Translations under genes and position numbers: made by a program
The notes under the pieces: generated by a model
Told to the model about the DNA's origin: nothing
Seen by the model: only the letters and a program-made list of their open reading frames with translations
The model's database searches: none
In this document: positions 32,340 through 55,582 of the stretch, one piece after another
Layout: each line of letters starts with the position of its first letter
Position numbering within the stretch: position 1 is the first letter of the stretch
Origin: Frigidibacter mobilis
GTDB taxonomy: Bacteria; Pseudomonadota; Alphaproteobacteria; Rhodobacterales; Rhodobacteraceae
Reading direction: 5' to 3'
DNA length: 64,000 nt
Assembly (NCBI RefSeq): GCF_001620265.1
Contig: NZ_CP012661.1
Coordinates: forward strand, 434,001-498,000

Positions 32340-32386
32340 TCGGCGGCCTGTAGCGTGCCGCATTTGCGTCTATGCGCTGGCGGCAC
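32340..32386 (-). promoter_or_regulatory. Shared 47-bp element, copy A (upstream of the recombinase operon)
   Basis: This block matches 55536-55582 at 43 of 47 bases. Its core is a palindrome with arms GTGCCGC (32355-32361) and GCGGCAC (32380-32386). It lies 73-119 bases upstream of the first gene (start 32267) of the operon that ends with the serine recombinase. The conservation, orientation and distance suggest a common operator or promoter. Confidence 0.7.
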
Positions 32387-32502
32387 TCCCGAGGTGCTGC
32401 TGACGCCAGTTGCGGCCTTTCGTGGAACGTCAGGTCGGGCGTAGGGTGTCGCAGAAATCAGACGCGAACTTGTCCGCCTAATCGTGAGTTGTGCGATGAC
32501 AT

Positions 32503-33369
32503 CTACTGTTTGGGATGTGACCAACCAAGATTCATTGCAGCAGCCGACAGCAGGATTGCACCCGCTCCAGCAAACTGCATGAGGTTCATCTTCTGGTCGA
32601 ATGCCAACCAGTCCACGATGATCGCGACAACCGGATAAATAAACGAGAGAATCCCGACGAGGCTAGTCGGCAGTTTTTGGAGCGCTCCATACAGCAATGT
32701 GGACATCACCGCCGTATGCACGACGCCGATGGTCAGTAGCATCGCCCATGAGGTCGCACCCGCCGGTCTGCCGGCGAAAGGCAGGAGCATGATTGCTCCT
32801 ACACTGAGTTGAATAAGGACGATCAAATGGGGCGGAACGCCCTTCAACTTTTTCGCAATCAGCGCTGCCGCCGCATAAAAGAAAGCGGCCCCGAGGGCCA
32901 TCAGAACACCGATGGAAAAGTCAGGCGAGTCCGCCCCCGACACGGATCGGCCAAGCACGATGCCAAGCATGCCCGCGAAGCTGAGCACTAGCCAACCCAG
33001 CTTGTTCAGCGTGAGCCGTTCGCCAAGCAACAAGACACCGAGCCCCACGAGCATGAAGGGCTGGGTATGGTAGATAACCGTCGCCACGGAGATCGAAGCA
33101 TAGGCATAGGCCCCGAACAGAAAGCTCCAGTTCAGCGCGAGTGCGACGCCACCTAGGACGATCCATGCGAATTGACGTCGATTGAAAACATCGCGTCGGA
33201 GAAATCCAAGCATCGCGCAAACGATCAGCATGGCAGCCGAGCCGAACAGGCATCGCCAGAATACGGCTGCGGATGGCGCGAGACCGGACTGGATGGCGAA
33301 CCATCCGACCGTGCCTGAAATCGTCATGGCGAGCGTCATTTCCGCCACGCCGCGTTTGTGCGTGTTCAT
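32503..33369 (-). CDS. EamA-family (DMT) exporter
   Basis: A 288-residue transporter with about ten hydrophobic helices in two repeated EamA halves; conserved segments include FWRCLFGSAAML and GVLLLGERLT. It probably exports a small metabolite. It is divergent from an XRE-cupin regulator 83 bases away, a usual pairing for such exporters, and both have lower GC and different codon use from the flanking transfer genes. I read it as cargo inserted between the recombinase operon and the trb block. The reading frame is intact. Confidence 0.85.
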   Translation of the reverse strand: MNTHKRGVAEMTLAMTISGTVGWFAIQSGLAPSAAVFWRCLFGSAAMLIVCAMLGFLRRDVFNRRQFAWIVLGGVALALNWSFLFGAYAYASISVATVIYHTQPFMLVGLGVLLLGERLTLNKLGWLVLSFAGMLGIVLGRSVSGADSPDFSIGVLMALGAAFFYAAAALIAKKLKGVPPHLIVLIQLSVGAIMLLPFAGRPAGATSWAMLLTIGVVHTAVMSTLLYGALQKLPTSLVGILSFIYPVVAIIVDWLAFDQKMNLMQFAGAGAILLSAAAMNLGWSHPKQ

Positions 33370-33384
33370 ACTAGCTCCGTATGA

Positions 33385-33415
33385 TATAGTGAACGCTAGA
33401 GCGGTATAATGAACG
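33385..33415. promoter_or_regulatory. Repeated operator-like motif in the EamA/XRE divergent region
   Basis: TATAGTGAACG (33385-33395) and TATAATGAACG (33405-33415) repeat with a 20-base spacing, about two helical turns. TATAAT in the second copy could also be the -10 box of the regulator gene. The pair probably binds the XRE-cupin protein. Confidence 0.5.
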
Positions 33416-33452
33416 AGTGAAGACCGTCCGTCAAAAAGAACAAGTGGATTCT

Positions 33453-34307: not shown

Positions 34308-34309
34308 GG

Positions 34310-35437
34310 TCAACCTCCTGCCGGCTCGAACACAAGGTCGCGGGTAACGATGATCCTGACTGGGAAACCGGGCCGGATGGTCAGCGTCGGCGCAACCTGC
34401 AACTGCCGCTGGACGATCTGCTGGCCTGCCTGATTGACCGTATCCTGCGCCCCGTCTCGGATAGCTCGAACAAGCCGGTCCTCGTCGCTCGTCGCCAGCT
34501 CCGTGCCGACTGCGAGCAGCGTGGATAACCCTGCGGCCTTCATCAGATCCCACCAATGATAATCGACGCCATCCTCAAGGCCGGCATAGCCGCTGGCGTC
34601 CGCGCCCGGCAGGCGCTCAAGGACGATGGAACGGCCACCGGGAAGGATCAGGCGATTCCACACCAAGAGCACCCTGCGCTGGCCGAAGGTCACGCCATCA
34701 TCGTATTGACCGATGATGCGCGTTCCCTGCGGGATCAGGAGCAGCGAGCCGGTCGGGCTGTCATAGACGTTCTCCGTCACCTGCGCGGTGATCTGGCCGG
34801 GCAAGTCGGAACGGATGCCGGTGATGAGCGCGGCCGGGATCACGGCCCCGGCCTGAAGGATGTAGGGCGATGCCGGCGGCGCGACGCGATCCGGCGCGAC
34901 GGTCTGCCGGTCCACGGGTCCATTGAGGAAAGCCGCGTGCCGGTCCTGCGTCGCGGGCTGTCCACCAAGGCCAAGACCGGCAAGGCCGGGTATGGCCGTC
35001 CCTGCCGGCGCTCCCGTGCGCGGGGCGGACTGGAAGAACACATTGCTCAAGCGCGCGGCTTCTTCCTCGGCGCGGCGGCGTTCTTCCTCGGGATCGACGG
35101 CGGGCGTCGCCATGACGGGCGGCACGACTGGTTGTCCCCGGTTCTGCGCGTCGAGAATGGGTCGGCCCAAATCTCCCGGCAGCGCGGGGCCGAGCACCGG
35201 CCCGCTATAGTCGCTCGGCAGGCCCGCCAGCCCATCGATAGTTTGCCGGTTGTTGGTCGAATAGAGTTCTTCGCCTCCCGGCCCTGCATCGCGGGTCTGG
35301 AGTGCGTAGATCAGCGCGCCGCCGATGCCGAGCAAGGCGACAGCGCCGACGCCTGCCAGCATCTTGCGAGATAGGCGCGTGACACGGGGCGTTTCAGCGC
35401 GCAGGCGCATGGGGGCGGCGGTATCGGTATCGCTCAT
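34310..35437 (-). CDS. trbI: Conjugal transfer protein TrbI (VirB10-like)
   Basis: A 375-residue envelope-spanning component of the type IV secretion channel. There is a short cytoplasmic N-terminus, one membrane helix (GVGAVALLGIGGALIYAL), and a proline-rich linker near residues 70-150. The VirB10/TrbI C-terminal beta-barrel has PYILQAGAVIPAALITGI and GSLLLIPQGTRIIGQYD, and the block after it is standard. The start overlaps the trbG stop by four bases. Confidence 0.94.
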   Translation of the reverse strand: MSDTDTAAPMRLRAETPRVTRLSRKMLAGVGAVALLGIGGALIYALQTRDAGPGGEELYSTNNRQTIDGLAGLPSDYSGPVLGPALPGDLGRPILDAQNRGQPVVPPVMATPAVDPEEERRRAEEEAARLSNVFFQSAPRTGAPAGTAIPGLAGLGLGGQPATQDRHAAFLNGPVDRQTVAPDRVAPPASPYILQAGAVIPAALITGIRSDLPGQITAQVTENVYDSPTGSLLLIPQGTRIIGQYDDGVTFGQRRVLLVWNRLILPGGRSIVLERLPGADASGYAGLEDGVDYHWWDLMKAAGLSTLLAVGTELATSDEDRLVRAIRDGAQDTVNQAGQQIVQRQLQVAPTLTIRPGFPVRIIVTRDLVFEPAGG

Positions 35438-36435
35438 GAGGACGATCCTCCCGTGGTCGTGCTGGCTGGTTCTGCTGCGGCCTGCGTCGGGTTGGTGCGA
35501 ACGATCCTGATGACCTGCTGGCGATTGCCGCTGCCAAGGCGCAGCTCGGCCGCGCCGAACAGGCGGTCCACGATCAAGACGTTCTGGTGGACTCGGCTGT
35601 TGACGATCTGCGGTTCGCCATTGGAGCCGAGCACGAAGATCGGCGGCATCTCGCCCTGCACGATCCCGGCCGGGAAGACGACATAGACGCGCCGTCCATC
35701 GTCGAACACGGAAACCGGCCGCCATGGCGGGCTGTCGCCCTGCACCTGCAACGCGTAGCGACAGTTCCGCGCAGCCTCGGGCGGGATGATTGGCGCGGCC
35801 GGGACGGTCTGGCGCTGGCCTGCTGGCGGCGCGGGATAGGCCCATGCCACGGCGGGCATGTAGAGCGATTCCCGCGCGCGCAGCTCGAGCATGTAAGTGC
35901 GCCGGTCGGTGGTGACGACAAGGTTGGTCGAAATGTCCGGCCGCGTCGGCTTCACGAGAATATGGACGCGGCGGTTTGCACCGCTGCCGCTCTCGGTGTC
36001 GCCGATGATCCAGCGGGCGGTGTCGCCGGCCGCGATCGGCCCTGCACCTGTCAGGCTCTCGCCCGGTTCCAGCGCAATGGTCGTGATCTGCCCGACTGCG
36101 GCATAGACCTGATAGAGCGCGCCTTCCGACCAAGGATATATCTGGATGGCGTTGTAGTAGCCTTCGCGGCGCGGCTCGACGCGGGCGGCGGCATTGGCGT
36201 TCTCGACGCGGCCGGTCGGCGTGCCTGCGGCGGTGCCGCCGCGCGCCACGGTCCATGCCGGGGGCACATGCAACGGCCGGGGCGGGTCGTCGGCTGCTGC
36301 CGCCTGCACGGTCGGCAGCGGCGGCACGCTGGCGTCGTAGCTGAATTGCGGCGTCCGGTTGGTGGCGCAGCCTGCGAGCATGGTGGCCGAAAGCAGCATG
36401 GCCGCGATTGCCGGAGTGCGGGTGATGGTCCTCAT
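35434..36435 (-). CDS. trbG: Conjugal transfer protein TrbG (VirB9-like)
   Basis: A 333-residue periplasmic and outer-membrane core component. It has a lipoprotein-like signal peptide (ATMLAGCATN, with a lipobox cysteine near residue 24). Family segments are YPWSEGALYQVYAAVGQIT, LEPGE, WIIGD, and the C-terminal VFDDGRRVYVVFP and IVDRLFGAAELRLG. Four-base overlaps with trbF and trbI mark tight coupling in the trb operon. Confidence 0.94.
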   Translation of the reverse strand: MRTITRTPAIAAMLLSATMLAGCATNRTPQFSYDASVPPLPTVQAAAADDPPRPLHVPPAWTVARGGTAAGTPTGRVENANAAARVEPRREGYYNAIQIYPWSEGALYQVYAAVGQITTIALEPGESLTGAGPIAAGDTARWIIGDTESGSGANRRVHILVKPTRPDISTNLVVTTDRRTYMLELRARESLYMPAVAWAYPAPPAGQRQTVPAAPIIPPEAARNCRYALQVQGDSPPWRPVSVFDDGRRVYVVFPAGIVQGEMPPIFVLGSNGEPQIVNSRVHQNVLIVDRLFGAAELRLGSGNRQQVIRIVRTNPTQAAAEPASTTTGGSSS

Positions 36436-37121
36436 TGGCTCATCTCCCGCGACCACGAAATTGCATTGACGTAGATTCCCAGCGGATTGGCGCGCAGACG
36501 CTCGGCGTCGCGCGGCGGCTGGATGACGATGGTGAGGATGGCCGTCCATCGTTCTGTGCTGGAAAGCTGGCCGTTCTCGAAATGGCGCTCGGTCCACGCG
36601 ACGCGGAAGCTGTTGGGGGACGCCCGGATGACGCTCGACACTTCGACGGCGATCTGCTGGCGGCCGACCTTGGTGAAGGGATCGTTGGCGCGGGCGTAAT
36701 CGTTGAGCGCCGCCGCGCCGCGATCTGTGGTCCACTCATAGGCTCGAAGCCAGTTCTGGCGGACAATGATCGCGTCGGCCGGGATCGCGCGCACCTGCTC
36801 GATGAATCGGCCGAGATGGAAAGCAATCTGCGGATCGGTCGGCCGATAGTCGGCGTTGGCAGGCGCGACGGTCTGCGCCTGACCGAGATTGTCCACTTGC
36901 ACCACCCAAGGCACCACGGTTCCGCGTGCGGACTGCCAGACCAGCGCGGATGCGAAGCCGGCCGACAGGATCAGCGAGCCGAAGGCCATGTAGCGCCAGT
37001 TCCTCGCCTGCACACGGGCCGAGCCGATACGCTCGTCCCATGCCTGCGCGGCCTTCTGATAGGGCGTCTCGGGTTCCGGCGATTTGCCGTAGTGGGTGGC
37101 TGGTCGTTTGAAGATGCTCAT
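36432..37121 (-). CDS. trbF: Conjugal transfer protein TrbF (VirB8-like)
   Basis: A 229-residue inner-membrane nucleating component of the mating channel. It has a short cytoplasmic part, one helix (MAFGSLILSAGFASALVW) and a VirB8-like periplasmic domain with FIEQVRAIPAD and NPFTKVGRQ. The C-terminal part ends NPLGIYVNAISWSREMSQ. It overlaps trbL and trbG by four bases each. Confidence 0.94.
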   Translation of the reverse strand: MSIFKRPATHYGKSPEPETPYQKAAQAWDERIGSARVQARNWRYMAFGSLILSAGFASALVWQSARGTVVPWVVQVDNLGQAQTVAPANADYRPTDPQIAFHLGRFIEQVRAIPADAIIVRQNWLRAYEWTTDRGAAALNDYARANDPFTKVGRQQIAVEVSSVIRASPNSFRVAWTERHFENGQLSSTERWTAILTIVIQPPRDAERLRANPLGIYVNAISWSREMSQ

Positions 37122-38503
37122 GAGCGGTCACTTTCGGAAAGGTTGACGGAGGAACCGGAGCCATGGCTGTCGCCGGAGCGGACGGCATGGGCGGTCATGG
37201 TGGTGCCGTGGTTGAGGGCCTGCCGGCGCTGCATCCGCTGCGCCCATGCCGGAGGGCCGCCCGCCGGGCCGGATGGAGCGGCTGCGGGATCAGCACTCGC
37301 ACCGCCGACCGTGCCCATGGTCGAGCTGCCGCCAGTCGCGCCGAAGCCAGCCTTTGCGCCAGCGGAGAAGCTGGACTTGACGCTTTCGCCTGCTTGCGAT
37401 GCTGCGCTGGAGGCCGCGCGCTTGAGCGGCGAGATAGCGGCCGAGCCTGCCGCTCGGGCGACGCCGCCGAGGCCGGAGGCAACGCCCGCCGCCCCGGTCT
37501 GGCCGAGCGAGCCGAGGCTATAGGCAGCGGTCGCCGCGCCCGCGGCGGTCGCGCCTCCCCGAACGGCCGCGGCTCCACCGGACAGGGCAGCAGCGCCGCC
37601 CTTCGCGGCAAGCATGGCCCCACCGCCAGCCGCCGCACCGCCCGCAAGCACCATGCCGCCGGCAGCGAGGCCGGTGCCCACGGCTGCGCCCGCGCCAAGC
37701 TGCGGGCCGCCCGAGACGATGCCGTTGGCGATGCCGGGGCCGAAGATGCCGAGGCCGAGCAGCGACAGCGCGGCGAGCACAATCGCCATAGCGTCGTCGA
37801 TGGTCGGGGTTGCCCCGCCGAAACCGGCCGTGAATTGCGAAAACAAGGTGCTGCCGATGCCGATGATGACGGCGAGAACCAGAACCTTGATGCCGGACGA
37901 CACCACGTTGCCGAGCACCTTTTCGGCCATGAACGCGGTCTTGCCGAACAAGCCGAAGGGAATCAGCACGAAGCCGGCGAGCGTCACCAACTTGAACTCG
38001 ATCAGCGTGACAAATAGCTGGATGGCGAGGATGAAGAAGGCCAGCACCACCAGCGCCCATGCGAACAGCAGGCAAGCGATCTGGATGAAGTTCTCGAAGA
38101 ACGCGATCCAGCCCATCAGGTCAGAAATCGAGTCGAGCAGCGGGCGGCCGGCGTCAAGGCCGGTCTGCGCGACGCGGCCCGGCCGCATCAGATCGGTGAC
38201 GGAAAAGCCGGTGCCCGACGCCATCAGGCCGAGGCCGGCGAAGCTCTCGAAGACGATGCGGGTGAGGTTGTTCCAATTGCCGATGATGTAGGCGAAGACG
38301 CCGACGAATAGCGTCTTCTTCACCAGCCGCGCGATAATGTCGTCATCCGCGCCCCATGCCCAAAACAGCGCGGCGAGAGTCACGTCGATGACGATCAACG
38401 TGGTGGCGATGAAGGCGACCTCGCCGCCGAGCAGGCCGAACCCGCTGTCGATGTAGGAGGTGAAGACCCCGAGGAAATTGTCGATGACGCCCGTGTTGCC
38501 CAT
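37118..38503 (-). CDS. trbL: Conjugal transfer protein TrbL (VirB6-like)
   Basis: A 461-residue polytopic inner-membrane protein with six or more helices in the first 260 residues. A long low-complexity tail rich in glycine, alanine and serine follows (residues about 260-440), typical of TrbL. The N-terminal block NTGVIDNFLGVFTSYIDSGF is conserved. It sits between the trbK-like gene and trbF. Confidence 0.93.
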   Translation of the reverse strand: MGNTGVIDNFLGVFTSYIDSGFGLLGGEVAFIATTLIVIDVTLAALFWAWGADDDIIARLVKKTLFVGVFAYIIGNWNNLTRIVFESFAGLGLMASGTGFSVTDLMRPGRVAQTGLDAGRPLLDSISDLMGWIAFFENFIQIACLLFAWALVVLAFFILAIQLFVTLIEFKLVTLAGFVLIPFGLFGKTAFMAEKVLGNVVSSGIKVLVLAVIIGIGSTLFSQFTAGFGGATPTIDDAMAIVLAALSLLGLGIFGPGIANGIVSGGPQLGAGAAVGTGLAAGGMVLAGGAAAGGGAMLAAKGGAAALSGGAAAVRGGATAAGAATAAYSLGSLGQTGAAGVASGLGGVARAAGSAAISPLKRAASSAASQAGESVKSSFSAGAKAGFGATGGSSTMGTVGGASADPAAAPSGPAGGPPAWAQRMQRRQALNHGTTMTAHAVRSGDSHGSGSSVNLSESDRS

Positions 38504-38505
38504 GG

Positions 38506-38772
38506 TCAGCGCGCCTCGCTGCGGTCGCGGCCGAGGAAGCGGTCGCGGGATTCAGCCCATGCGGCGAGGCAGCCGGCATCGCTGGCGGCAGCCTCGCCGA
38601 GCTGCTGGCAGCGGCGCAGGGTTTCGCGCAGGGGATCGGCCGGGGGCTGGAAGGCCGGCGCAGGGGGCGGCGCGGAAGGTTCATCCTTCCGCGCCATGTC
38701 TATTGCGGTCGCCGTGACAGCGATGGCGATGAACACCACGGCCCCGAGCCGGGCCAGCATCTTGCCGTCCAT
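38506..38772 (-). CDS. trbK: TrbK-like putative entry-exclusion protein
   Basis: An 88-residue protein with one N-terminal membrane helix (LGAVVFIAIAVTATAI), a proline-rich spacer (PSAPPPAPAFQPP) and a small cysteine-containing C-terminal domain (RRCQQLGEAAASDAGCLAAW). Position between trbJ and trbL and this pattern match the 'TrbK-alt' proteins of such elements, thought to limit redundant transfer between like cells. Sequence similarity to plasmid RP4 TrbK is not visible to me. Confidence 0.75.
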   Translation of the reverse strand: MDGKMLARLGAVVFIAIAVTATAIDMARKDEPSAPPPAPAFQPPADPLRETLRRCQQLGEAAASDAGCLAAWAESRDRFLGRDRSEAR

Positions 38773-38786
38773 GGCGAGCCTCCCGG

Positions 38787-39563
38787 TCAGTTGTTGCCGT
38801 TGTTGAACATCTGCGCCTTGCCCGGCTGATAACCGCTGCCCGGCGTCAGAAACCGCTCACGCTGGATGCGGCCCTGTTCGGCAGCGGTCGCGCGCTCTGC
38901 CTCGGTGAGCGCGTCCGCCCGGCCATTGGCCGAGATGACCGCGATCAGGTCGGAAAGCTGCTGCGACTGGAGGGCGAGAAGCTGGTTGCCGGCCTGCGTG
39001 GCCTGCAGCGCCCCGGTCGCGCCCTGACTCTGGCCGACCAGCGCGGCCATCTCGGCGCGGTTGGTGTCTATATTGCCGACCGCGCCCGCCTGCACCCGCA
39101 TCGCGTCCTGCAAGCCGCCGACCGTGTTTTCCCAACGGCCGCGCGCATTGGCGACCAGTTGGGCGTCGGTCGCCGATAGCGAGACATTGCCATATTGCTG
39201 CTGGAACGCTTGGTCGATCTGGCCGACCTCGAAGGCGATGTTCTGCGCTTGGCCGAGAAGCTGCTGCGTGCGCTGGACGTTCTGCTGGAGCTGCTGGAGC
39301 GAGCTATGCGGCAGGCTCGCAAGGTTGCGGGCCTGATTGATGAGCATCTGCGCCTCGTTCTGGAGGCTGGTGATCTGGTTATTGATCTGCTCCAGCGTGC
39401 GGGCGGCCGTAAGCACGTTCTGCGCGTAGTTGCTCGGATCATAGACGATGCGGCCGAAGCCGAATTGCGCATGGGCCGGGCTTGCCAGCATGGGCGAAAG
39501 CGCGACAGGCACGGCGAGCGCCAGCGCAAGGGCCGAGGCCCCGACGATCTTGGGATAGGTCAT
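38787..39563 (-). CDS. trbJ: Conjugal transfer protein TrbJ (VirB5-like)
   Basis: A 258-residue secreted, mostly helical pilus-associated protein. The signal peptide ends near SPAHAQF. The mature part has YDPSNYAQNVLTAARTLEQI and a glutamine-rich coiled coil (LQQLQQNVQRTQQLLGQAQ). The ATG at 39563 follows AGGAGATTATTCC. It overlaps the trbE stop by four bases. Confidence 0.93.
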   Translation of the reverse strand: MTYPKIVGASALALALAVPVALSPMLASPAHAQFGFGRIVYDPSNYAQNVLTAARTLEQINNQITSLQNEAQMLINQARNLASLPHSSLQQLQQNVQRTQQLLGQAQNIAFEVGQIDQAFQQQYGNVSLSATDAQLVANARGRWENTVGGLQDAMRVQAGAVGNIDTNRAEMAALVGQSQGATGALQATQAGNQLLALQSQQLSDLIAVISANGRADALTEAERATAAEQGRIQRERFLTPGSGYQPGKAQMFNNGNN

Positions 39564-42052
39564 GGAATAATCTCCTGTGTGGGGTGGGTATCGAGCCGGG
39601 CCGGCGCGGCGGATTCCGGCCGGTCGGCAAGATTGGTGAGGTTCGGGATCAGGTCGGCCGCCCACTCGACGCCGCGATGGCGTAGCCAGCCGGCGAGGAA
39701 ACCGGCGCGGCCGTGCTCAGCATGGATGCGCGCGATTTCGGTCTGGTCGGATTTGGAGGATGCGGCGCAGAGCGCGAGGCCGACTTCGGATAGGCCAAGC
39801 TCAAACAGGCGATTGCCCCTGCGGCTTTGGCAGTAATAATCCCGCTTGGGCGTGGCCCGTGCGAGGATTTCGATCTGCCTGTCATTGAGGCCGAAGCGGC
39901 GATAGATGGCCGTGATCTGCGGCTCGATGGCCCGCTCGTTCGGCAGCAAGAGTCGCGTCGGGCAGCTCTCGATAATCGCGGGCGCGATGTTGCTGCCGTC
40001 GATGTCGGACAGGCTTTGCGTGGCGAAGATGACCGATGCGTTTTTCTTGCGCAGCGTTTTCAGCCATTCGCGGAGCTGGCCGGCGAAACCCTCGTCGTCC
40101 AGCGCAAGCCAGCCTTCATCTATGATGAGCAGCGTCGGCCGCCCGTCGAGCCGGTCGCCGATGCGATGGAACAGATAAGCGAGCACGGCCGGGGCCGCGC
40201 CGGTCCCGACAAGGCCCTCGATCTCGAACGCCTGCACGTCCGCCGATCCCAAATGCTCTGTCTCGGCGTCGAGCAGCCGGCCATAGGCCCCACCGACGCA
40301 GAACGGCCGGAGCGCCTGTTTCAGATCGTTGGATTGCAGCAGGACCGCAAGGCCGGTGATCGTGCGTTCTTCGACCGGCGCGGAGGCGAGCGAAGTCAGC
40401 GCCGTCCAAAGATGCTCCTTCACCTCGGGCGTGATGGCGATGCCTTCGCGCATGAGGATGGCGGCAATCCAGTCCGCCGCCCATGCGCGTTCATAGGTGT
40501 CGTGGATGCGGGCAAGTGGCTGGAGCGAGACGGACGCCTCGTCTCCTTCCGTGAGGCCACCGCCCAAATCGTGCCAATCCCCGCCCATGGCGAGCGCGGC
40601 GGCGCGGATGCTGCCGCCGAAGTCGAAGGCGAAAACCTGCGATCCCGCGTAGCGCCGGAACTGCAAGGCCATGAGCGCCAGCAGCACGGATTTGCCCGCG
40701 CCCGTGGGGCCGACGACAAGGGTGTGGCCTACGTCGCCGACATGGAGACTTAGCCGGAACGGGGTTGAGCCTTCGGTCTTTCCAAAGAGCAAAGGGGGCG
40801 CACCGAAATGCTCGTCCCGTTCCGGCCCCGCCCACACCGCCGAAAGCGGGATCATGTGGGCGAGATTCAAAGTGCTGATAGGCGGCTGGCGGACATTCGC
40901 GTAGGCGTGTCCGGGCAGGCTGCCGAGCCATGCGTCAACCGCGTTGACGCTCTCGGGCATGGCGGTGAAGTCGCGGCCCTGAACGATCTTCTCGACCAGG
41001 CGCAGCTTCTCGTCGGCAAGGCGCGGGTCGGCATCCCAAACGGTGACGGTTGCCGTGACATAGGCCATGCCCGCCACGTCCGCCCCAAGCTCCTGCAACG
41101 CCATGTCGGCGTCGAGCGCCTTGTTCGCGGCGTCGGTGTCCACAAGCGCGGACGCCTCGTTCGTCATCACCTCTTTCAGAATCGCGGCGACGCTCTTGCG
41201 CTTGGCGAACCACTGGCGACGGATGCGGGTCAGCAGCCGGGTCGCATCTGTCTTGTCGAGCAGGATCGCCCGCGTGCTCCAGCGATACGGGAACGGCAGC
41301 CGGTTCATGTCGTCGAGCAGGCCCGGCGTCGTCGCGGTCGGGAATCCCACGATGGTCAGGACGCGCAGATGTGCGTCGCCAAGGCGCGGCTCCAGCCCGC
41401 CGGTCAACGGCTGGTCGGCGAGCAGCGCGTCGAGGTGCATCGGCACCTCCGGCACGCGCACGCGATGCCGATTGGTCGAGATGGTGGAATGGAGATAGGT
41501 CAGCGTCGCGCCGTCATCCATCCAACGGCACTCGGGCGTGAAACCGTCGAGCAGCGCCAGCACGCGGTCGGTGCGGTCGATGAAGCCGCGCAGCAGTTCC
41601 CACGGGTCCACGCCGGTTTTCTCGCGACCCTCATAGAGCCATGCTTCAGCGCGGGCGGCCTCCTCGGCCGGAGGGAGCCAGAGGAAGGTGAGGAAGTAGC
41701 CCGACACGAAATGCGCGTCCGCTTCCTCGAAACCGGCTTTCCGCTCGGCATCGACCAGCGCCGACGCGGGATCGGGAAAGGTGCTGTCGGGATAGGTCGC
41801 GGCTTCGCTGCGCTGTGCCTCGACGAAGATGCTCCAGCCGGAGCCGAGACGGCGCACGGCGTTGTTGATGCGGCCGGCGACGGCGACCAGCTCGGCCGCT
41901 ACGGCGGAATCCAGATCGGGACCGCGAAACTTCGCCGTCCTCTGAAAACTCCCGTCCTTGTTCAGGACGACGCCCGAGCCGACCAGCGCGGCCCATGGCA
42001 GATAGTCGGCGAGCCGGGATGCGGTGCGGCGGTATTCTGCAAGGTTCATCAT
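39560..42052 (-). CDS. trbE: Conjugal transfer ATPase TrbE (VirB4-like)
   Basis: An 830-residue ATPase powering pilus assembly and substrate transfer. The N-terminal CagE/TrbE region (MMNLAEYRRTASRLADYLPW) is followed by Walker A VVGPTGAGKSVLL near residue 450. Walker B LLIIDEGWLAL lies near residue 645, and VIFATQSLSDI beyond it. Two adjacent ATGs make the exact start 42052 or 42049. The gene is uninterrupted, which matters because several cargo genes nearby are broken. Confidence 0.95.
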   Translation of the reverse strand: MMNLAEYRRTASRLADYLPWAALVGSGVVLNKDGSFQRTAKFRGPDLDSAVAAELVAVAGRINNAVRRLGSGWSIFVEAQRSEAATYPDSTFPDPASALVDAERKAGFEEADAHFVSGYFLTFLWLPPAEEAARAEAWLYEGREKTGVDPWELLRGFIDRTDRVLALLDGFTPECRWMDDGATLTYLHSTISTNRHRVRVPEVPMHLDALLADQPLTGGLEPRLGDAHLRVLTIVGFPTATTPGLLDDMNRLPFPYRWSTRAILLDKTDATRLLTRIRRQWFAKRKSVAAILKEVMTNEASALVDTDAANKALDADMALQELGADVAGMAYVTATVTVWDADPRLADEKLRLVEKIVQGRDFTAMPESVNAVDAWLGSLPGHAYANVRQPPISTLNLAHMIPLSAVWAGPERDEHFGAPPLLFGKTEGSTPFRLSLHVGDVGHTLVVGPTGAGKSVLLALMALQFRRYAGSQVFAFDFGGSIRAAALAMGGDWHDLGGGLTEGDEASVSLQPLARIHDTYERAWAADWIAAILMREGIAITPEVKEHLWTALTSLASAPVEERTITGLAVLLQSNDLKQALRPFCVGGAYGRLLDAETEHLGSADVQAFEIEGLVGTGAAPAVLAYLFHRIGDRLDGRPTLLIIDEGWLALDDEGFAGQLREWLKTLRKKNASVIFATQSLSDIDGSNIAPAIIESCPTRLLLPNERAIEPQITAIYRRFGLNDRQIEILARATPKRDYYCQSRRGNRLFELGLSEVGLALCAASSKSDQTEIARIHAEHGRAGFLAGWLRHRGVEWAADLIPNLTNLADRPESAAPARLDTHPTQEIIP

Positions 42053-42062
42053 AGCCGCGCCC

Positions 42063-43668: not shown

Positions 43669-43787
43669 GTCGGCCCCGGCTTTTGGCGGGGACGCAACAG
43701 GCGGACCCCGGATCGGGGTCGATTAAGAAAGCCCGGAATTGGGCCGGTTCAACAAGTATCTAAGCGGCGGCGGCAATCGGCGGCGAA

Positions 43788-43807: not shown

Positions 43808-43814
43808 CCGAATC

Positions 43815-44276: not shown

Positions 44277-44286
44277 GGGCGTGTCC

Positions 44287-47395: not shown

Positions 47396-47418
47396 AGGTG
47401 CTGATCGCCGCCGCATTG

Positions 47419-48659
47419 CTACCCGCGCGCTGGATTTGGCTTTAGCGGGACCGGCCCTCCAGAATTACGGACAAGTATCGTCGATACCGCGCCAATCAGA
47501 AGCAGGATCGCGGCCGACCAGAAAGCCGCCGAGTAGCTTCCCGTCTCAACCCGCAAATAGCCGCCGAGATACACGGCGATAGCCGCAAGTATTTGATGCA
47601 GAAACCATGCGGTGCCGAGGATGCTGCCCATGGCGTTCGCGCCGAACAGGTCGCCGATCAAGCCGGTCTTCAATGGGATGATCGGCATGGACGATACGCC
47701 ATAGATGAGGGCGAACGCATAGAGGTGCCACACCTCTGTAGAGACTGCGAGGAAGGCAAGGGAGAGTGCGCGGACTAGATAAAGGCCAATCAGCAGGTTC
47801 TTCTTGCCAACCCGTCCAGCCAACTGCCCGCACGCCCACATAGAAATCGCGCTTGCACCAGCGGCAAGGCCGAGAACCTGCCCGCCTGTGGAAAGGTCTG
47901 CCCAAGATCGACGGCGAAACGCGGCAGGTGGATCACAACAAGATAGAGGGAATATCCGCAAGTGACGAAGGCGAATGTCGCAGCCCAAAAATCAGAGTTG
48001 CGAATTGCCTGCGAAAGCGATGCGGACTTGGGCGGGGTGAAGGTGGAAAGCTGGTCGCCATCCGGTGCTTGATTGATCTTGTCTGGAGAACTTTGAGTGA
48101 CGAACAGGACCAGAGGGACGATCACCACGATCATTAACATGCCGAGCACAAGGAACGCGCCGCGAAAGCCAGAAGTGACGATAAGCCATCCGGCGAGCGG
48201 AAGAAAAACAAGCTGGCCGATATTCATGCCCATGGCGCTTTGGGCCAGCATCCGCGCTCGCCCCCGGACATACCATCGAGCGACTAGGACCGAATTGGCC
48301 ATTGACCCGCAGCCAGCAAAACCAATCGCGGCAAGGATTCCGTAGTAGAAATAAAACTCCCAGATTGTTGAAATGGTCGATGACAGCAGAAAGGCGATTC
48401 CCATCAGCGCGGCACTTGCCACGATGACGGGCTTTGGGCCGAAGCGGTCGATCATTCTCCCCATGAGAGGCTGAAAGATGCCCCATACGATCATGTTGAG
48501 GGCTGCCGCTGAACTCAACGTCGCGAGTCCCCATCCGAACTCTTGGGCCAAGGGCGCGAAAAACTGGCCGCCGCTAAGATTGAGGCCAAACGCTCCCATC
48601 AGAGTGATGAAGGCGATGGCGACTATCCATGGTCCGTGGAAATGTTGCGCGTTCTGCAT
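47419..48659 (-). pseudogene. MFS transporter, broken by a one-base loss
   Basis: The first part starts MQNAQHFHGPWIVAIAFIT and has the MFS loop MGRMIDRFGPKPV. It runs through six or more helices to HLPRFAVDLGQTF, then continues out of frame to nonsense. The remaining six helices are in another frame, starting STGGQVLGLAAGASAI. Adding one T to the TTT run (plus strand AAA at 47892-47894) joins them into a 413-residue transporter of normal length. It is preceded by a TetR operator. Substrate unknown; the pattern resembles monocarboxylate-type transporters. Confidence 0.8.
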
Positions 48660-49284: not shown

Positions 49285-49334
49285 CCTAGCAGTTTGCTGG
49301 GATACTTCAACATGAGATTCACGGATGGATATGG

Positions 49335-51389
49335 CTAAAAGCTCAACCCCCTCTGCCGGCCCAACTGCCACGACACCGATCCGCCCTGCACGACGCCCAT
49401 GACTTCGCGGCCAAGCTGGCGGTCGATGACCGGCCGCCACGGGACAAGCGTGAACTCATGGGATTTCTCGACCACGGCGAACTTGCCACTGGATAGCTGC
49501 ACGGTCCCGGTGAACTTGCCGCTGACGTTCTCGCCGTCCGTGGCGGCGCGGAACGGCAACCCTTTGCTCTCGGCCATCTCTGCGCCAACGCGAGCAACCT
49601 CCCGCTCGCGCAAGGTGGCGAGAAGGCTGCGCCGATAGAAGATGCGACCGTCCCGCGCTCTGCTGGCGTCGCCCTGTTCGATATGATGCTCACGGCGCTG
49701 GTCCATCGCCTCACGCACCTGCTGGCCGAAGCCGGTCGGGGCAAGGTCGGCCGTTTCGCCATGCACCAATCGCCGGTCCAGCCAGGTCGCGCCATCCGAA
49801 CCGATCTGCTTGCCTAGATCGACCGGGGAAAGGACGCGAACGCTGGCCTGCCGGTCACGGCCAGCGTCATAGGCGGCTGCACGGCTGACCAGATCATCGG
49901 GGATGCGCCATTGGTCGCTGTCGATCCGCTCGACGATCTCGGCGCGGCGCAATGCCTCCAGCCGGCGGACATGAGCATCGACATAGCCCTCATAGTCGCC
50001 GCCCGGAACGCGGCCTTCGAACTTGGCCTGCTCCAGATGGCGGCTCGGCCGATAGATGCCGTCCTCTGCAATTGCTGTGATGGTGCGGTCGGACGGGCGA
50101 GCCGTCGCCTCGGCCGGGCCGATCTGGATGACGCTGCCGATGCGGGCATCCTCCAGCCGCTCGGGCGCGATGCCGGCGATATGGTGCATGCGGCCGTCGA
50201 TCCCATCCACCACGATTGTCAGGTTCTCGCCCAACTCGTCGGACAGGTGCTTGTCCACGACACGGCCGACGATGGGCGTGTCGGGCGCTCCGTCATGGAT
50301 TTGGAAGCTCATGGGGTCGCGTTCGCCGCCTTGCGGGCCGAGCGCCTTCTGCATGGTGCGGATAATGTCGCCACGCTCGCCCAACTCGCGCAGGGCCGGC
50401 TCCATGTCCTTGCTCAATTCCCAAACGGCGGGCGCGTGCTCGGTCGCCAGTCCCATCTTCTCCAGCTTGCCGAGACGGCGCAGGCGTAGCGTCCGCTCGA
50501 ACTGCCGCCTCGGCTCTGCCGGTTCATGGCGCAGGTCGAGGAAACGGGCATCGGCTTCCTCGGCCATGGCGCGGTCGATGCGGGTGAAACGGTCTTGGTC
50601 GATTTCGGCGGACAGCTTGCGGGTCTGCTCGATCTCGGTCACAGGGCCGAGTTCCAGACTGGCAAGCTCGCTGGCGCGCTCGCGCAGACCGGCGGAAAGA
50701 TAGTCGCCGTTGATGACTAGATCCCCGCCCATATCATCGTGGCCGTTGACGATGACATGTACATGGGGATGGCCGGTGTTGTAGTGATTGACGGCAACCC
50801 AATCGAGTTTGGTGCCGAGGTCGGCTTCCACCTGCTTCATGAAATCGCGGGTGTAGGCCGTAAGGTCCGACAGCTCCGCGCCGTCCTCGGGCGAGACGAT
50901 GAACCTGAACTGGTGGCGGTCGTCCTTGCCGCGATCAAGGAAGGCGTCGCCATCGGCGCGGTCTTCGGTCGCCGAATAGAGCCGGCCCCGCTCGCCGTCG
51001 CGTGACGTGCCGTCGCGTTGGACATAGCGCAGATGCGCGCGGGCACGGCCTCCCTTCCATGCGGCCCTGACGCTGCGCTGCTTGACGATGACGCGGCGGC
51101 TGCCCGGCTGGCGATGATGCCAGTTGCCGGATATGTTCCGGGCGCGCACGAAGCTCGCGCCCCGGCCGCGCTTCACGCCCTTGCCGCTGGCGACCGCGGC
51201 ACGGGAACGGCCCGGCGATGACGGACGGGCGGATGACGGCATGGAAGGGTCGCGGGAGGCTGCCGCCTGATGCTGGCGGGTGATCTTCTTGACCTGCGTG
51301 AAAAAGCTCTTGGGTCTCCCAGCCTTCGGCGTGTCGGATCGGATGCGGCCGGGCTTCGGTCGGAAGCGGTTTTCGTCGTCGGCGCTCAA
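49335..51389 (-). CDS. Relaxase (DUF3363 / RlxS-like)
   Basis: A 684-residue relaxase that should nick at oriT and pilot the DNA into the recipient. The basic N-terminus (residues 1-100) is followed by the relaxase core with HYNTGHPHVHVIVNG, the histidine triad that holds the metal. The catalytic tyrosine is probably one of those upstream of the triad, such as in HLRYVQRDG or DLTAYTRDF. The C-terminal half is DUF3363. It is the RlxS-type relaxase used by ICEMlSymR7A-like elements. The candidate oriT lies directly upstream. Confidence 0.93.
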   Translation of the reverse strand: MSADDENRFRPKPGRIRSDTPKAGRPKSFFTQVKKITRQHQAAASRDPSMPSSARPSSPGRSRAAVASGKGVKRGRGASFVRARNISGNWHHRQPGSRRVIVKQRSVRAAWKGGRARAHLRYVQRDGTSRDGERGRLYSATEDRADGDAFLDRGKDDRHQFRFIVSPEDGAELSDLTAYTRDFMKQVEADLGTKLDWVAVNHYNTGHPHVHVIVNGHDDMGGDLVINGDYLSAGLRERASELASLELGPVTEIEQTRKLSAEIDQDRFTRIDRAMAEEADARFLDLRHEPAEPRRQFERTLRLRRLGKLEKMGLATEHAPAVWELSKDMEPALRELGERGDIIRTMQKALGPQGGERDPMSFQIHDGAPDTPIVGRVVDKHLSDELGENLTIVVDGIDGRMHHIAGIAPERLEDARIGSVIQIGPAEATARPSDRTITAIAEDGIYRPSRHLEQAKFEGRVPGGDYEGYVDAHVRRLEALRRAEIVERIDSDQWRIPDDLVSRAAAYDAGRDRQASVRVLSPVDLGKQIGSDGATWLDRRLVHGETADLAPTGFGQQVREAMDQRREHHIEQGDASRARDGRIFYRRSLLATLREREVARVGAEMAESKGLPFRAATDGENVSGKFTGTVQLSSGKFAVVEKSHEFTLVPWRPVIDRQLGREVMGVVQGGSVSWQLGRQRGLSF

Positions 51390-51702: not shown

Positions 51703-52635
51703 TCATGGCGTTTCTCCATCGCTGGCGCTCGCCACGAAAATGCTGCCGTCCTGCGACTCCGCACGGGCGTGGTCGCGCGCCGGAACGGCAGCGCGGCCGT
51801 CGCCTGTTTGCACCACGGACGGGGGCGCGGCGGCAGCTCGCGTGTCGTCCGGCCGCATGACGAACAGCGGTGCCTCGCGCCAGTCGGGCTGCGGTGCCGG
51901 TGGTTGCAACGGCGCATCCGATGGAGCCGCGCCGCCAAGGATCGGGGCAAGCGCGGCGACATAGGCGCGTGTCTCGGCGGGAAGCGGGCGGCCCGTCGCG
52001 CGGTGCTCGTCATAGCGGCCGGGGCCGGCGTTATAGGCCGCAAGCATCGCCGCGACATTGCCGTAGCGGTCGAACATCTCGCGCAGGTAGGCCGTGCCTG
52101 CGAGGATATTGTCGCGCGGGTCGTAGGGATCGCGGCCGAGGCCATGGCGGACGCGCAGGCCCGCCCATGTGTCGGGCATGACCTGCATCAATCCCATCGC
52201 CCCGGCCGACGAAATCGCACGCACGTCGCCCGCGCTCTCGGCGCGCAGCACGGCGCGAATCCAGTGCTCGGGGATGCCGAAACGCTGCGACGCCTCGGAG
52301 ATGTGCGCCGCAAAGGGATGGGCTGCGGCCGGGCGCTCGACCGGCACGGACTGCGCGACAGCGACGCCCGATCCGATGCAGACTGAAAGCGCCCCCGCCA
52401 GCAGCAGGATGGCACAATGCCATGCCGGCCTGTCTCCGCTTCGCCGCCAGCCTGCCAGCGTGCTCGCTGCGGTCAAGGGCAAGGCGCAAGCGCCGGCCGA
52501 TGGCCGCCCCTGACCTTCGCTGTGCGCGCCGGCCGTCTGGTCGCCGAGCGGGACGAAGGGATGCGACGGCTTTTCCGCGAACAAAGGGATGCCGATCTTT
52601 GACCGGGTGGCGGGCCGGACGCGCGCGGCCGTCAT
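51703..52635 (-). CDS. Lytic transglycosylase (VirB1/TrbN-like)
   Basis: A 310-residue periplasmic enzyme that opens peptidoglycan for the conjugation channel. The long N-terminal region precedes a membrane or signal segment (ILLLAGALSVCIGSGVAVAQS). The catalytic domain follows, with the glutamate in VLRAESAGD, then SSAGAMGLMQVMPDTW and AYNAGPGRYDE, the SLT hallmarks. A variable proline-rich tail closes it. It overlaps the DUF736 stop by four bases. The downstream gap holds the candidate oriT. Confidence 0.9.
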   Translation of the reverse strand: MTAARVRPATRSKIGIPLFAEKPSHPFVPLGDQTAGAHSEGQGRPSAGACALPLTAASTLAGWRRSGDRPAWHCAILLLAGALSVCIGSGVAVAQSVPVERPAAAHPFAAHISEASQRFGIPEHWIRAVLRAESAGDVRAISSAGAMGLMQVMPDTWAGLRVRHGLGRDPYDPRDNILAGTAYLREMFDRYGNVAAMLAAYNAGPGRYDEHRATGRPLPAETRAYVAALAPILGGAAPSDAPLQPPAPQPDWREAPLFVMRPDDTRAAAAPPSVVQTGDGRAAVPARDHARAESQDGSIFVASASDGETP

Positions 52636-52967
52636 TCCTCATCCTCGATCTTCCGGGCGTGCTTCCAACGCAGGGTCCAGACCGATGGATCATCGTTGGA
52701 CTGGAACAGCTTGGCGCGGATCGGGAACGGGAAGATTGGCCCCCCCAATCGCATCGACACGAACTCGCCAGCGTTCTCGCTGGAGTCTTTCCATGCGGGG
52801 CCGGCGTCCGGGCCGTCCTCGCTATCGAGACGCACGCGATAGTCGGGCGCGTTTTTCACGTCGCTCGCTTTGGCCGGGACGATGAACAGCTTTTCGTGGA
52901 GGCCGAACGAATGAAGCTCCCCGGCATAGCCGGTTTCGGTGCGGGTGAAGGTGCCTATTTCTGCCAT
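52632..52967 (-). CDS. DUF736 protein
   Basis: A 111-residue protein starting MAEIGTFTRTETGYAGELHS, the DUF736 pattern found next to traF and the transglycosylase in conjugative elements of alphaproteobacteria. Function unknown. A GGAGATTTCCC stretch upstream serves as the ribosome-binding site. It overlaps the following gene by four bases, so it belongs to the same transfer-processing operon. Confidence 0.85.
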   Translation of the reverse strand: MAEIGTFTRTETGYAGELHSFGLHEKLFIVPAKASDVKNAPDYRVRLDSEDGPDAGPAWKDSSENAGEFVSMRLGGPIFPFPIRAKLFQSNDDPSVWTLRWKHARKIEDEE

Positions 52968-53002
52968 GGGAAATCTCCTGCGATTGGTTTCGGGGGGCGG
53001 TT

Positions 53003-53548
53003 TCAGTGCGTCGGCGCGCGCCACTCGTAGCGGCCGACGCCTTCCTCATCGGTCCAGAGCGGGACCGCTCGGCCGATGACGGAAGCTGCGGGGATGGGTC
53101 CGAAATACCGGCCGTCGAGGCTGTCGCGGACCTCCCAATTCATGAGGAAAAGCTGGCCGTCGCCGATGACGCGGCAACCCTGCCAGCCGGGCAGATCGCG
53201 GCCGAGGCTGTCGCGCTCCAGCGCATCGCCCATCTCGATCCCGTCAACCGTGATCGTGCGGCCGGTGCGGCAAACCCGCTGCCCCGGCAGGCCGAGGACG
53301 CGCTTCAACAGCGGAACGCCTCGCGCGATATAGCCGCGCTCGACCATGAAAGCGGCGAGCGGTTCGGGCGGCATGACGGCGACCAGCTCCGGCACGTCGA
53401 TCCGCTCGGCCGGCTCGACGGTGTAGAATCCGACCGGTGCGCTGGCGGTGGCGTTCCATATGAGTTTCGTCGGTGTCTTGACCGCGCTTGCGGCGGCGAT
53501 GCCGATCACCGCCAGCGCCGTCACCGTGAGGGTGCGGCGGCGCGTCAT
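53003..53548 (-). CDS. traF: TraF-like S26 signal peptidase
   Basis: A 181-residue membrane-anchored peptidase that matures the pilin. There is one N-terminal helix (TVTALAVIGIAAASAV). The S26 catalytic serine is in TASAPVGFYTVEP and the general-base lysine in GVPLLKRVLGLPG; GWQGCRVIGDGQLFLMNWEV is the second conserved region. It overlaps the DUF2840 stop by four bases. Confidence 0.92.
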   Translation of the reverse strand: MTRRRTLTVTALAVIGIAAASAVKTPTKLIWNATASAPVGFYTVEPAERIDVPELVAVMPPEPLAAFMVERGYIARGVPLLKRVLGLPGQRVCRTGRTITVDGIEMGDALERDSLGRDLPGWQGCRVIGDGQLFLMNWEVRDSLDGRYFGPIPAASVIGRAVPLWTDEEGVGRYEWRAPTH

Positions 53549-54063
53549 GGCTCGATCCTTCGACGGTGAAGCCAAGCGGCATGTCGCTCGGGCGTGTAGG
53601 CGTGCGGTTCCAGATTGGCGGTCAAACGGTTGTGGACGTGCCGCCAGTGATCCGGCGAGGCGTCGGCCGGATCGAGGCCGAGCGCATCCACGGCGTCGAT
53701 AGCTACAAGCGCACGCTGCACCTTGGGCCAGCCGTCGAGGCGCAACAGGATTTCGCCACCGGGGCGCACGAAGGGCAATGTCTGGAACGGCTCACCGCGC
53801 CCGATGGCGCGCACAATGTCGATGCGCGAAACAACCGTGCCATGCTCACCAGATGCCCAACGGACGAAGGCAAAGACGCTGCCCGGCGCGAAGCCGACGA
53901 CGCTGCGGCGGCGGTCGATGATCTGCTCGTAGCTCTTGCGGCCGAAGCGTATCCAGTGTTCGACCTTGCGTTTCTCGAAGGTCAACTCGACCAATGTGGT
54001 GAAGGGCGCAGGCCCGTCCGGCAGCGGACGGCCGTGCGCGCTGCGGTGGGCGCGACGGGTCAT
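53545..54063 (-). CDS. DUF2840 protein
   Basis: A 172-residue protein with the DUF2840 pattern: VELTFEKRKVEHWIRFGRKS, then FAPGSVFAFVRWASGEHGTV and GGEILLRLDGWPKVQ. It is a conserved transfer-module protein of unknown role. In related elements a parA gene normally lies between rep and this gene; here only 58 bases separate them and no ParA is visible. Confidence 0.85.
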   Translation of the reverse strand: MTRRAHRSAHGRPLPDGPAPFTTLVELTFEKRKVEHWIRFGRKSYEQIIDRRRSVVGFAPGSVFAFVRWASGEHGTVVSRIDIVRAIGRGEPFQTLPFVRPGGEILLRLDGWPKVQRALVAIDAVDALGLDPADASPDHWRHVHNRLTANLEPHAYTPERHAAWLHRRRIEP

Positions 54064-54121
54064 TGTTCGTCTCCGGGGATGTGCTGGGGGCTGCGCGGGC
54101 GCATCGTGTCGAGCGCGGCCG

Positions 54122-55198
54122 TCATGGCTCGCCACTTCGGGCAGAACCGGCACCACGCTTCGCCTGCGCGCGCGTCAAAGAAAAAGAGTTAGATTCTCTG
54201 TTAGATAAGTTAGCGGTCGGATTCCGCCTTTCAGGCCAAAGAGTTAGCTGCGGTTCGTGCGCCTGATCTGCCGATAGTGCTGCGCCTGATGTGCCGATAC
54301 CCCGTGCGCCTGATCTGCCGATGGCATTAACAGGGTTATCAACAGTGCCTGTTGATGAGCTTTCGGGGCGGATGCGCAGCAGTTCGCGGCCGTCTTGCCG
54401 CTCGATCTGGAGCAGGTAGCCGGGAAGTTGCTGGCGGGCCGCGATCCGGCGCAGGTCGAGCGCAAAGTCGGACGGCCGTGCGAGGCTGCCGGATTTCTGG
54501 TGAAGGTGTACGACCTCGAAAATCCAGCCGTGGCGCTGGTGGCCGGCGTGCTTTCTGGCGACGCGGTAAAGCCATCGCTCTATGCCGCCAGTCAGCCGGA
54601 AATAGGCCGGGTCGATGGTCAGGACCAGCGAGCGGTCAATGACGCTGTTGTAGAACCATTCGGGCAGGACGAACTCCATGCCCTCGACGCGGCCGGCGCG
54701 CGTCGTCATTTCCTCCCACTCGTTGATCCATGAGAATTGCCGGCGACGCCAATGCGGGCCGTTGCGGATGGTGGTTGCAATGACGGTCGATTGCAGCCGC
54801 GCCAGCGCGGCTTTCAGAAGCCGATATTGGTGATTGCCGGTCGGCCGCCCGATGGCGCGCAAAAGATGGTAGGGCGTAAACCGGACAAAGCGCGACGTGG
54901 TGTGGCCGTTGTTCTCGGCCGCGACGATCTGCGAGGCCGCCCATATTAGCACATCGGCGTCCCAAATGGTCGCCATGCCGTGCTCGGGCATCCCGAACAC
55001 CTGCACCTCTATGTCGGCGGCCTTGTAGAGAATTGGCTTGCTGCGCGGGGTCTTCGCCAGCGAGAAGAACGGCCGTTCCATCAAGTCGCGCTGGTCGCGC
55101 GGCGGCGCGTCGCCCGTTGCGACCACAAAGGGGTCTAGTCGGCTGCGCTCGCTGCCCTCGCCCGGCAACGCGGGGTCGTGATCGTCCTCGCGCAGCAT
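54122..55198 (-). CDS. Plasmid-type replication initiator protein (RepA-like)
   Basis: A 358-residue protein of the replication-initiator family found on conjugative elements of this group. The core runs from ERPFFSLAKTPRSKPILY through TPYHLLRAIGRPTGNHQY, and the C-terminal half includes RWLYRVARKHAGHQRHGWIF. The last 90 residues are variable and overlap three iteron-like repeats. The start directly follows the stop of the RdfS-like gene (TAGATG). It suggests the element can replicate as a circle before transfer. Confidence 0.85.
   Translation of the reverse strand: MLREDDHDPALPGEGSERSRLDPFVVATGDAPPRDQRDLMERPFFSLAKTPRSKPILYKAADIEVQVFGMPEHGMATIWDADVLIWAASQIVAAENNGHTTSRFVRFTPYHLLRAIGRPTGNHQYRLLKAALARLQSTVIATTIRNGPHWRRRQFSWINEWEEMTTRAGRVEGMEFVLPEWFYNSVIDRSLVLTIDPAYFRLTGGIERWLYRVARKHAGHQRHGWIFEVVHLHQKSGSLARPSDFALDLRRIAARQQLPGYLLQIERQDGRELLRIRPESSSTGTVDNPVNAIGRSGARGIGTSGAALSADQAHEPQLTLWPERRNPTANLSNRESNSFSLTRAQAKRGAGSARSGEP
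54258..54355. repeat. Iteron-like repeats and possible origin in the rep 3' end
   Basis: An 18-base unit (TGCGCCTGAT-S-TGCCGAT) occurs three times at 54258, 54281 and 54305, spaced 23 and 24 bases, about two helical turns. Next to it are a DnaA-box-like TTATCAACA (54336-54344) and a perfect repeat TCAACAG-TGC-CTGTTGA (54339-54355). The 23/24 spacing puts the third copy in another coding frame, so the DNA, not the protein, seems to be what is conserved. Confidence 0.6.
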
Positions 55199-55468
55199 CT
55201 AGCAGTCGCCCCGTTCTTCGGGCGTGAGGGGACGCGCGGGAAAGACGGTGCCGGCGGTCTTTTCGCGGGTGGATTTGCGCTCGCCCGCCGCGCTCCAGTC
55301 TTCCAGATCGCGGACGGTGTAGAGGACGCGACCGCCGACCTTGCGATAGGTCGGGCCGGTGCCATAGGTGCGATGCTTCTCAAGGGTGCGGATGGATATG
55401 CCAAGGAAGCGCGCGGCTTCCTTGGTGCGCAGCAGGCGCGGCGGCAGGCCCGCAAGCGGGTTGGGCAT
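55199..55468 (-). CDS. AlpA/RdfS-like excisionase or regulator
   Basis: An 89-residue protein with a MerR-like winged helix (LLRTKEAARFLGISIRTLEKH) and a charged tail. In ICEMlSymR7A the small protein RdfS, of this type, directs excision and controls transfer genes. Here the gene also heads the operon leading to rep, DUF2840, traF and the relaxase. The strong ribosome-binding site GGAGGTGATCC precedes the ATG. Its upstream region carries the 47-bp block shared with the recombinase operon. Confidence 0.75.
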   Translation of the reverse strand: MPNPLAGLPPRLLRTKEAARFLGISIRTLEKHRTYGTGPTYRKVGGRVLYTVRDLEDWSAAGERKSTREKTAGTVFPARPLTPEERGDC

Positions 55469-55535
55469 GGATCACCTCCAGTCGGGATTGGGCTGCCGGG
55501 GGCGGCAGCGGACCGTGGCGAAACATGGCGAGGGA

Positions 55536-55582
55536 TCGGCGGCGCGTAGCGTGCCGCATTTGCGCCTATGCGCTAGCGGCAC
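55536..55582 (-). promoter_or_regulatory. Shared 47-bp element, copy B (upstream of the RdfS-like gene)
   Basis: This block matches 32340-32386 at 43 of 47 bases; the palindromic arms GTGCCGC (55551-55557) and GCGGCAC (55576-55582) are identical in both. It lies 68-114 bases upstream of the gene starting at 55468, in the same orientation and at nearly the same distance as copy A to its operon. Confidence 0.7.

Follow-up and report, generated by a model that had tools for sequence, protein, structure and literature searches.

A repeated FseA-type promoter probably links the recombinase and rdfS/transfer operons of a Frigidibacter mobilis integrative element

The window analyzed here is a stretch of 64,000 nucleotides from Frigidibacter mobilis (contig NZ_CP012661.1, positions 434,001 to 498,000), and all coordinates below refer to it unless a locus is named. 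It carries an integrative and conjugative element (ICE) in which a promoter-like block stands in two copies, one before the operon that ends with a large serine recombinase gene and the other before the operon that starts with a homologue of rdfS and leads to replication and transfer genes. Based on comparison of sequences, it is likely that the excision/replication/transfer operon and the integration module are both under direct activation by one FseA-type protein.

The two copies, at 32340-32386 and at 55536-55582, are equally oriented and identical at 43 of 47 bases, as the initial annotation had stated, and the number of pairs this good or better expected by chance is about 1e-10. The runner-up match to either copy on both strands of the window reaches 27 of 47, and the top match in 20 Markov-simulated windows was 30 of 47. 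A matrix scan of the window returned these two sites alone (scores of 57.1 and 54.5) and no weaker additional ones, its runner-up (-12.2) being the palindrome read from the other strand. The block begins 119 and 114 bp and ends 72 and 67 bp upstream of the start codons of the first genes (32267 and 55468, respectively), in line with the distance of about 70 to 120 bp reported before. The arms GTGCCGC and GCGGCAC are both present, but the 32 bases formerly given as the distance between them are their total span, and the arms are separated by 18 bp. The common sequence extends past the 47 bp, as both copies continue from the palindrome through GCTAC[A/G] and 17 bp to CATNNT. A second element of this kind in the F. 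mobilis genome carries two further copies, separated by 21.6 kb. The predicted parts of the two promoters are as follows.

32355-32386, minus strand: predicted FseA-type box, copy A, a 32-bp inverted repeat (shared block, with the geometry given in PMC10359603)
32384-32379 and 32362-32357, minus strand: predicted FseA-box hexamers of copy A, spaced 16 bp
32326-32354, minus strand: candidate -35 GCTACA (32354-32349), 17-bp spacer and candidate -10 CATCGT (32331-32326) of copy A, common to copy B and other copies
55551-55582, minus strand: predicted FseA-type box, copy B (shared block)
55580-55575 and 55558-55553, minus strand: predicted hexamers of copy B, spaced 16 bp
55522-55550, minus strand: candidate -35 GCTACG (55550-55545), 17-bp spacer and candidate -10 CATGTT (55527-55522) of copy B, common to other copies

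Within the block, the box reads GCCGC[C/T]-N16-TGCGGC, with arms complementary at 5 of 6 positions. The candidate -35 starts two bases past the box and is followed by the candidate -10 after the 17-bp spacer; GCTAC[A/G] resembles the -35 consensus, TTGACA, only weakly. The rdfS and recombinase promoter classes, whose downstream genes are unrelated, were compared position by position (41 and 40 distinct sequences). Between-class identity was 0.27 at -20 to -4 and 0.74 in the last four bases before the repeat; it was 0.96 in the 32-bp repeat, 0.99 in GCTAC, 0.60 over the next 18 bp and 0.93 in the -10 region, and it fell to 0.49 immediately after and then to 0.27-0.31, also beyond +80. Among 82 distinct 66-mers, substitutions within positions 1-37 fall at 2, 7-22, 26 and 35, mostly at 16-19, and their concentration at 7-22, between the arms, is expected if the spacer matters little. 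A plasmid copy matching 27 of 32 bases has both arms intact.

We followed the placement of the block in related elements. A degenerate pattern, with gene classes assigned by local protein comparison, matched 79 stretches of named genomes, where 36 copies are followed by an rdfS homologue and 41 by the recombinase operon or what remains of it, and 2 (L008 and L085) received no class in that comparison; the class listing holds 81 rows, since the second pair of F. mobilis was added. A wider search of the 59 genomes behind the named loci (except L037), which allowed up to 3 mismatches and included inexact matches, gave, together with a few other copies, 127 rows in total (66 recombinase, 56 rdfS, 3 AlpA [L008, L136, L241] and 2 other [L085, L255]). 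As L176 duplicates L054, distinct sites number 126, with 65 in the recombinase class. An rdfS homologue or the recombinase operon or its remains lies downstream in 121 of the 126, the placement that the initial annotation had proposed to look for in related ICEs, and inclusion of the AlpA-type gene raises this to 124. L085 is a 451-bp contig end, rdfS-like by eye, and L255 is a metagenome contig with no recognized gene. In a class-wide even sample, a copy occurred in 1 of 384 other genomes, and a reversed control pattern in none. Because every copy was retrieved by its likeness to a single consensus, strongly divergent boxes would have escaped the search.

Order and strand were constant in all 29 rdfS/recombinase pairs on the same contig that we listed by hand, the recombinase copy lying 21.0 to 45.6 kb (median, 26.0) downstream. 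These pairs do not include an additional recombinase copy of G387, which is on the opposite strand, or the rdfS and AlpA copies of G411, which lie 124 kb apart on one contig in reverse order. Where at least 2.2 kb of upstream sequence existed, rdfS copies were preceded by QseM (20/20) and FseA (17/20), and recombinase copies by trbI and DUF2274 (23/24 each). These neighbors give the usual order fseA, qseM, box, rdfS, rep, transfer genes, trb, box, integration module, attachment site.

The repeat resembles the FseA box, which was reportedly first proposed in a 2015 paper. FseA of ICEMlSymR7A (R7A) binds a 28-bp inverted repeat by the PrdfS -35, in which a pair of hexamers is spaced 16 bp (15 or 16 within the family) with centers 22 bp apart, and where the sequence between them tolerated single changes without effect (PMC10359603). 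We recovered this R7A-type box, GGCGAA-N16-TTCGCC, upstream of rdfS in Mesorhizobium loci whose RdfS is 100% identical to the R7A fragment. The 28-bp length, the 16-bp spacing and the central CG are common to the block and the R7A box (PMC10359603), and the predicted place of the block, next to a candidate -35 of the rdfS operon, would agree as well. Unlike the R7A box, the block has other arms, and here a second copy with an equal core promoter precedes the integration module. The block sequence was not found in R7A-like and other plasmid rdfS promoters (18-21/32), R7A sharing the geometry only. The window also has the matching regulators, a split fseA and a lone DUF2285 protein, as in R7A (PMC10359603).

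55925-56218, plus strand: lone DUF2285 (RovC_DNA-bd) protein, a QseM-like candidate antiactivator (Pfam PF10074, 1.2e-7)
56235-57015, minus strand: FseA-like activator in two overlapping open reading frames (ORFs), DUF6499-type at 56803-57015 and DUF2285 at 56235-56864 (PF20109, 6e-24; PF10074, 1.1e-28; AWEYLRRN motif)

The R7A fseA ORFs are joined by a +1 programmed frameshift (PMC10359603). By eye, a T-rich stretch where the FseA-like ORFs of the window overlap may be a frameshift site.

For box type, 27 selected loci were compared along with both other ICEs of this genome. The 17 block-bearing sets (29-32/32) included 12 with an FseA match, at 74 to 94% identity to that of the window (94% over 48 residues only), and the 12 block-free sets (18-21/32), two of which are one site (L191 is the third ICE of the genome), included 6 with an FseA match at 27 to 39%. 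In this third ICE, an R7A-like box, GGCGAT-N16-TTCGCC, stands at rdfS and the FseA match is distant (2.8e-9). No second box was found at an integration module in the surrounding 100 kb, where the one other fit to the pattern is read from the opposite strand and falls within an ORF judged by eye to be transposase-like. Box geometry as published, gene neighborhood and the tracking of box type with close FseA relatives support the FseA-like regulator suggested in the initial annotation, the binding itself being predicted.

We propose that the block would serve as an activator-dependent promoter module in two copies, each composed of box, -35, 17-bp spacer and -10. The FseA-like protein that the element itself encodes in two ORFs would bind each box as a dimer, activating rdfS-rep-DUF2840-traF and onward to the transfer genes and, in parallel, the integration module, which encodes a 105-residue protein (U105), a TumE-like toxin, its TumA-like partner and the serine recombinase. 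Excision factor, replication initiator, transfer genes, recombinase and toxin pair would thus be co-induced where the QseM-like antiactivator is overcome, and the toxin pair, expressed upon excision, would protect the excised element. Because the integration module has a box of its own, its control should be direct rather than via RdfS. We infer FseA binding, activation of both operons, timing and the roles of QseM and the toxin pair; excision, replication and transfer may have a joint start. One master regulator probably activates transfer and recombination genes together as the element readies to move between cells.

Several observations weigh against this proposal. The arms of the block differ from those of the R7A-type box. 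RdfS identity also divides by box type (80-99% vs 46-67%), although the FseA gap is wider, and QseM identity divides likewise, so that common descent can account for the link with FseA type. At 3 of 20 rdfS loci (L015, L046, L058), the 2.6 kb upstream gave no FseA. The two boxes of an element gave no signal of co-variation, differing at 1.21 positions vs 1.13 for shuffled pairs (19 pairs). Three divergent U105-recombinase modules (L178, L179, L181) lack the block, which means that the recombinase is usable without it. Finally, a newly entered recipient needs the recombinase perhaps before FseA is made, and another promoter may exist.

It is unlikely, though of the alternatives this one keeps most in its favor, that the block is a binding site of RdfS (or of the rep protein) and that RdfS autoregulates its promoter and activates the recombinase promoter in an R7A-like cascade. 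R7A RdfS binds PrdfS and lifts PintS activity by about 53% (PMC11963761), RdfS of a tripartite ICE activates rdfG and rdfM (PMC5882170), and the RdfS identities given above track box type too. However, the sites of RdfS reportedly gave no consensus motif (PMC11963761), yet the block is strictly conserved, and a long-spaced palindrome beside the -35 is the signature of FseA (PMC10359603). In the tripartite ICE, intS stood at 2.85, which we read as fold change, vs 20- to 58-fold for the rdfS operon (PMC5882170). The R7A and tripartite systems coordinate excision and transfer from FseA, as proposed here (PMC5882170, PMC11963761), and reach their recombination genes through RdfS, whereas the second box of the present element suggests direct parallel control.

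The palindrome might instead bind the TumA-like winged-helix protein, or another regulator of the element, that controls both operons. TumA is encoded in the recombinase operon and occurs in 49 of 51 recombinase modules, but no TumA was matched at the AlpA-type gene, which the block precedes as well, and R7A-type rdfS promoters have the same geometry; we consider this very improbable. About as improbable is a block that is mainly a recombination site for module exchange or multimer resolution, with an incidental promoter position. Modules behind the second copy are indeed swapped among elements, and in L056 (Ancylobacter polymorphus, 1-8000) a single box links the FseA and QseM genes on one side with the recombinase module on the other. 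Its left 25 bases are undiagnostic and the right side is of recombinase type (0.76 vs 0.30); the sole RdfS match of that genome at 1e-8 is 64% identical and lies on another contig. L056 has the look expected of a deletion that arose when two boxes recombined, but homologous recombination over 60 bp suffices for this, so that a dedicated site is unneeded, and conservation that returns at the -10 past a variable spacer is promoter-like. An ordinary dispersed repeat, which multiple copies per genome (up to 7, in G385) could suggest and which the initial annotation had named as the finding that would overturn its reading, was rejected as next to impossible on the placement census, given the 124 of 126 copies before one of three related gene sets and the near absence from the other genomes sampled in the class.

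Family matches of the encoded proteins agree with the operon contents described in the initial annotation. The recombinase operon comprises the following genes, with the tRNA gene at its end.

31950-32267, minus strand: U105, 105 aa, first gene of the operon, candidate directionality factor (familyless; from genomic association)
31675-31953, minus strand: TumE-like toxin gene (Pfam PF20126, 6.8e-6, 26.4 bits, cutoff 23.4)
31205-31603, minus strand: TumA-like winged-helix partner, HVO_A0114 family (Pfam PF25212, 9.2e-21)
29550-31208, minus strand: large serine recombinase (Pfam Resolvase/Recombinase/Zn_ribbon), its 3' end overlapping tRNA-Arg
29503-29579, plus strand: tRNA-Arg, overlapped by the 3' end of the recombinase gene

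Among 51 recombinase copies with 3 kb downstream, all had the recombinase, 49 U105, 49 TumA and 44 TumE. The two modules without U105 (L019, L071) are remnants in which the block adjoins a partial recombinase gene only. Among the block-free modules, L178 has a different toxin-antitoxin-like pair (named by eye) between U105 and recombinase, and L179 shows no toxin-antitoxin pair and a recombinase gene with one internal stop. U105 is small with a basic N terminus, is retained where the toxin pair is absent or different, and has no family in Pfam, NCBIfam or PHROGs; a low-confidence AlphaFold2 model from 18 sequences (mean pLDDT, 65.8; pTM, 0.28) has a single confident helix at about residues 67 to 85. 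Because it is the steady partner of the recombinase, we propose U105 with modest confidence, from genomic association, as the candidate directionality factor of its serine recombinase, which gives a large serine recombinase group a named candidate.

As in the published TumE-TumA system, a gene with a TumE domain (DUF6516) adjoins that of a DNA-binding partner (PMC10584680), and from the gene position we infer that the TumA-like protein is the antitoxin. Unlike the pair described in that article (PMC10584680), the present one lies inside a recombinase operon, has the toxin gene upstream of the partner, and has a short toxin ORF in the window. The TumE-like ORF runs 95 codons from stop to stop, vs 118 (11/40) and 120 (25/40) in relatives, and given this shortness the toxin of the window may be inactive. 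The serine recombinase genes of this genome's two elements end at different tRNAs, Arg (29503-29579) and Ser (L005:13575-13664), which suggests that related recombinases differ in the tRNA they target.

Behind the second box stands either the serine module or an AlpA gene beside a tyrosine integrase. In a third module type (L008:1595-3128; L136:2415-3671), the AlpA-type gene is convergent with the gene of a 418-aa tyrosine integrase; guaA adjoins the integrase of L136 and is its likely attachment site. It is conceivable, although we hold this only tentatively, that the two promoters form a single-input FseA regulon in which the second, lying between the trb cluster and the attachment site, would be a conserved socket for whole recombination modules, U105-TumE-TumA-serine recombinase in most elements and an AlpA-type excisionase gene with a tyrosine integrase in others; by analogy with AlpA, U105 would be the recombination directionality factor, and the toxin pair would guard the excised element.

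The repeated promoter may put both operons under one activator in parallel rather than in a cascade, and it suggests how integration modules of differing chemistry can be swapped and yet stay controlled. Titles and abstracts of the papers searched report no second FseA-controlled promoter and no recombination-module socket. A survey of Mesorhizobium counted 73 elements with tyrosine and 6 (five integrative and mobilizable elements and one ICE) with serine recombinases (PMC8627217); unlike these, the present clade mostly couples the backbone with the serine recombinase module.

The rdfS/transfer operon and the trb genes are arranged as follows, with assignments by family match where no other basis is given.

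55199-55468, minus strand: rdfS homologue, first gene of the second operon (HTH_17; solved R7A RdfS structure 8dgl, E = 7.7e-10)
54122-55198, minus strand: replication initiator, RPA family (Pfam PF10134, 2.3e-81)
53545-54156, minus strand: DUF2840
53003-53575, minus strand: S26 peptidase/TraF-like
52632-53024, minus strand: DUF736
51703-52635, minus strand: transglycosylase
49335-51389, minus strand: relaxase with DUF3363
44287-46272, minus strand: TraG-like coupling protein
Within 34310-46272, minus strand: trb cluster, from trbB-like T2SSE (42673-43668) to TrbI (34310-36256)

The gene set of R7A-like ICEs is therefore present (rdfS, traF, transglycosylase, relaxase, traG and trb genes), and the order rdfS, rep, DUF2840, traF, relaxase, traG, trb is that of Tn4371/R7A-like backbones (PMC8627217). 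One end of the element probably lies at tRNA-Arg. A search for the other (right) end found no repeat, the 3' segment of tRNA-Arg being single in the genome at up to 3 mismatches. An EamA gene lies between trbI and the second box in the window, and ORFs for a LysR regulator and an MFS transporter, the latter as two overlapping ORFs, lie between the relaxase and TraG genes (46454-48659). Beyond ArdA (57271-57735), the region 58094-63848 holds SIR2-domain and HerA-like genes and then an Eco57I-type methylase, which likely form a defense cluster.

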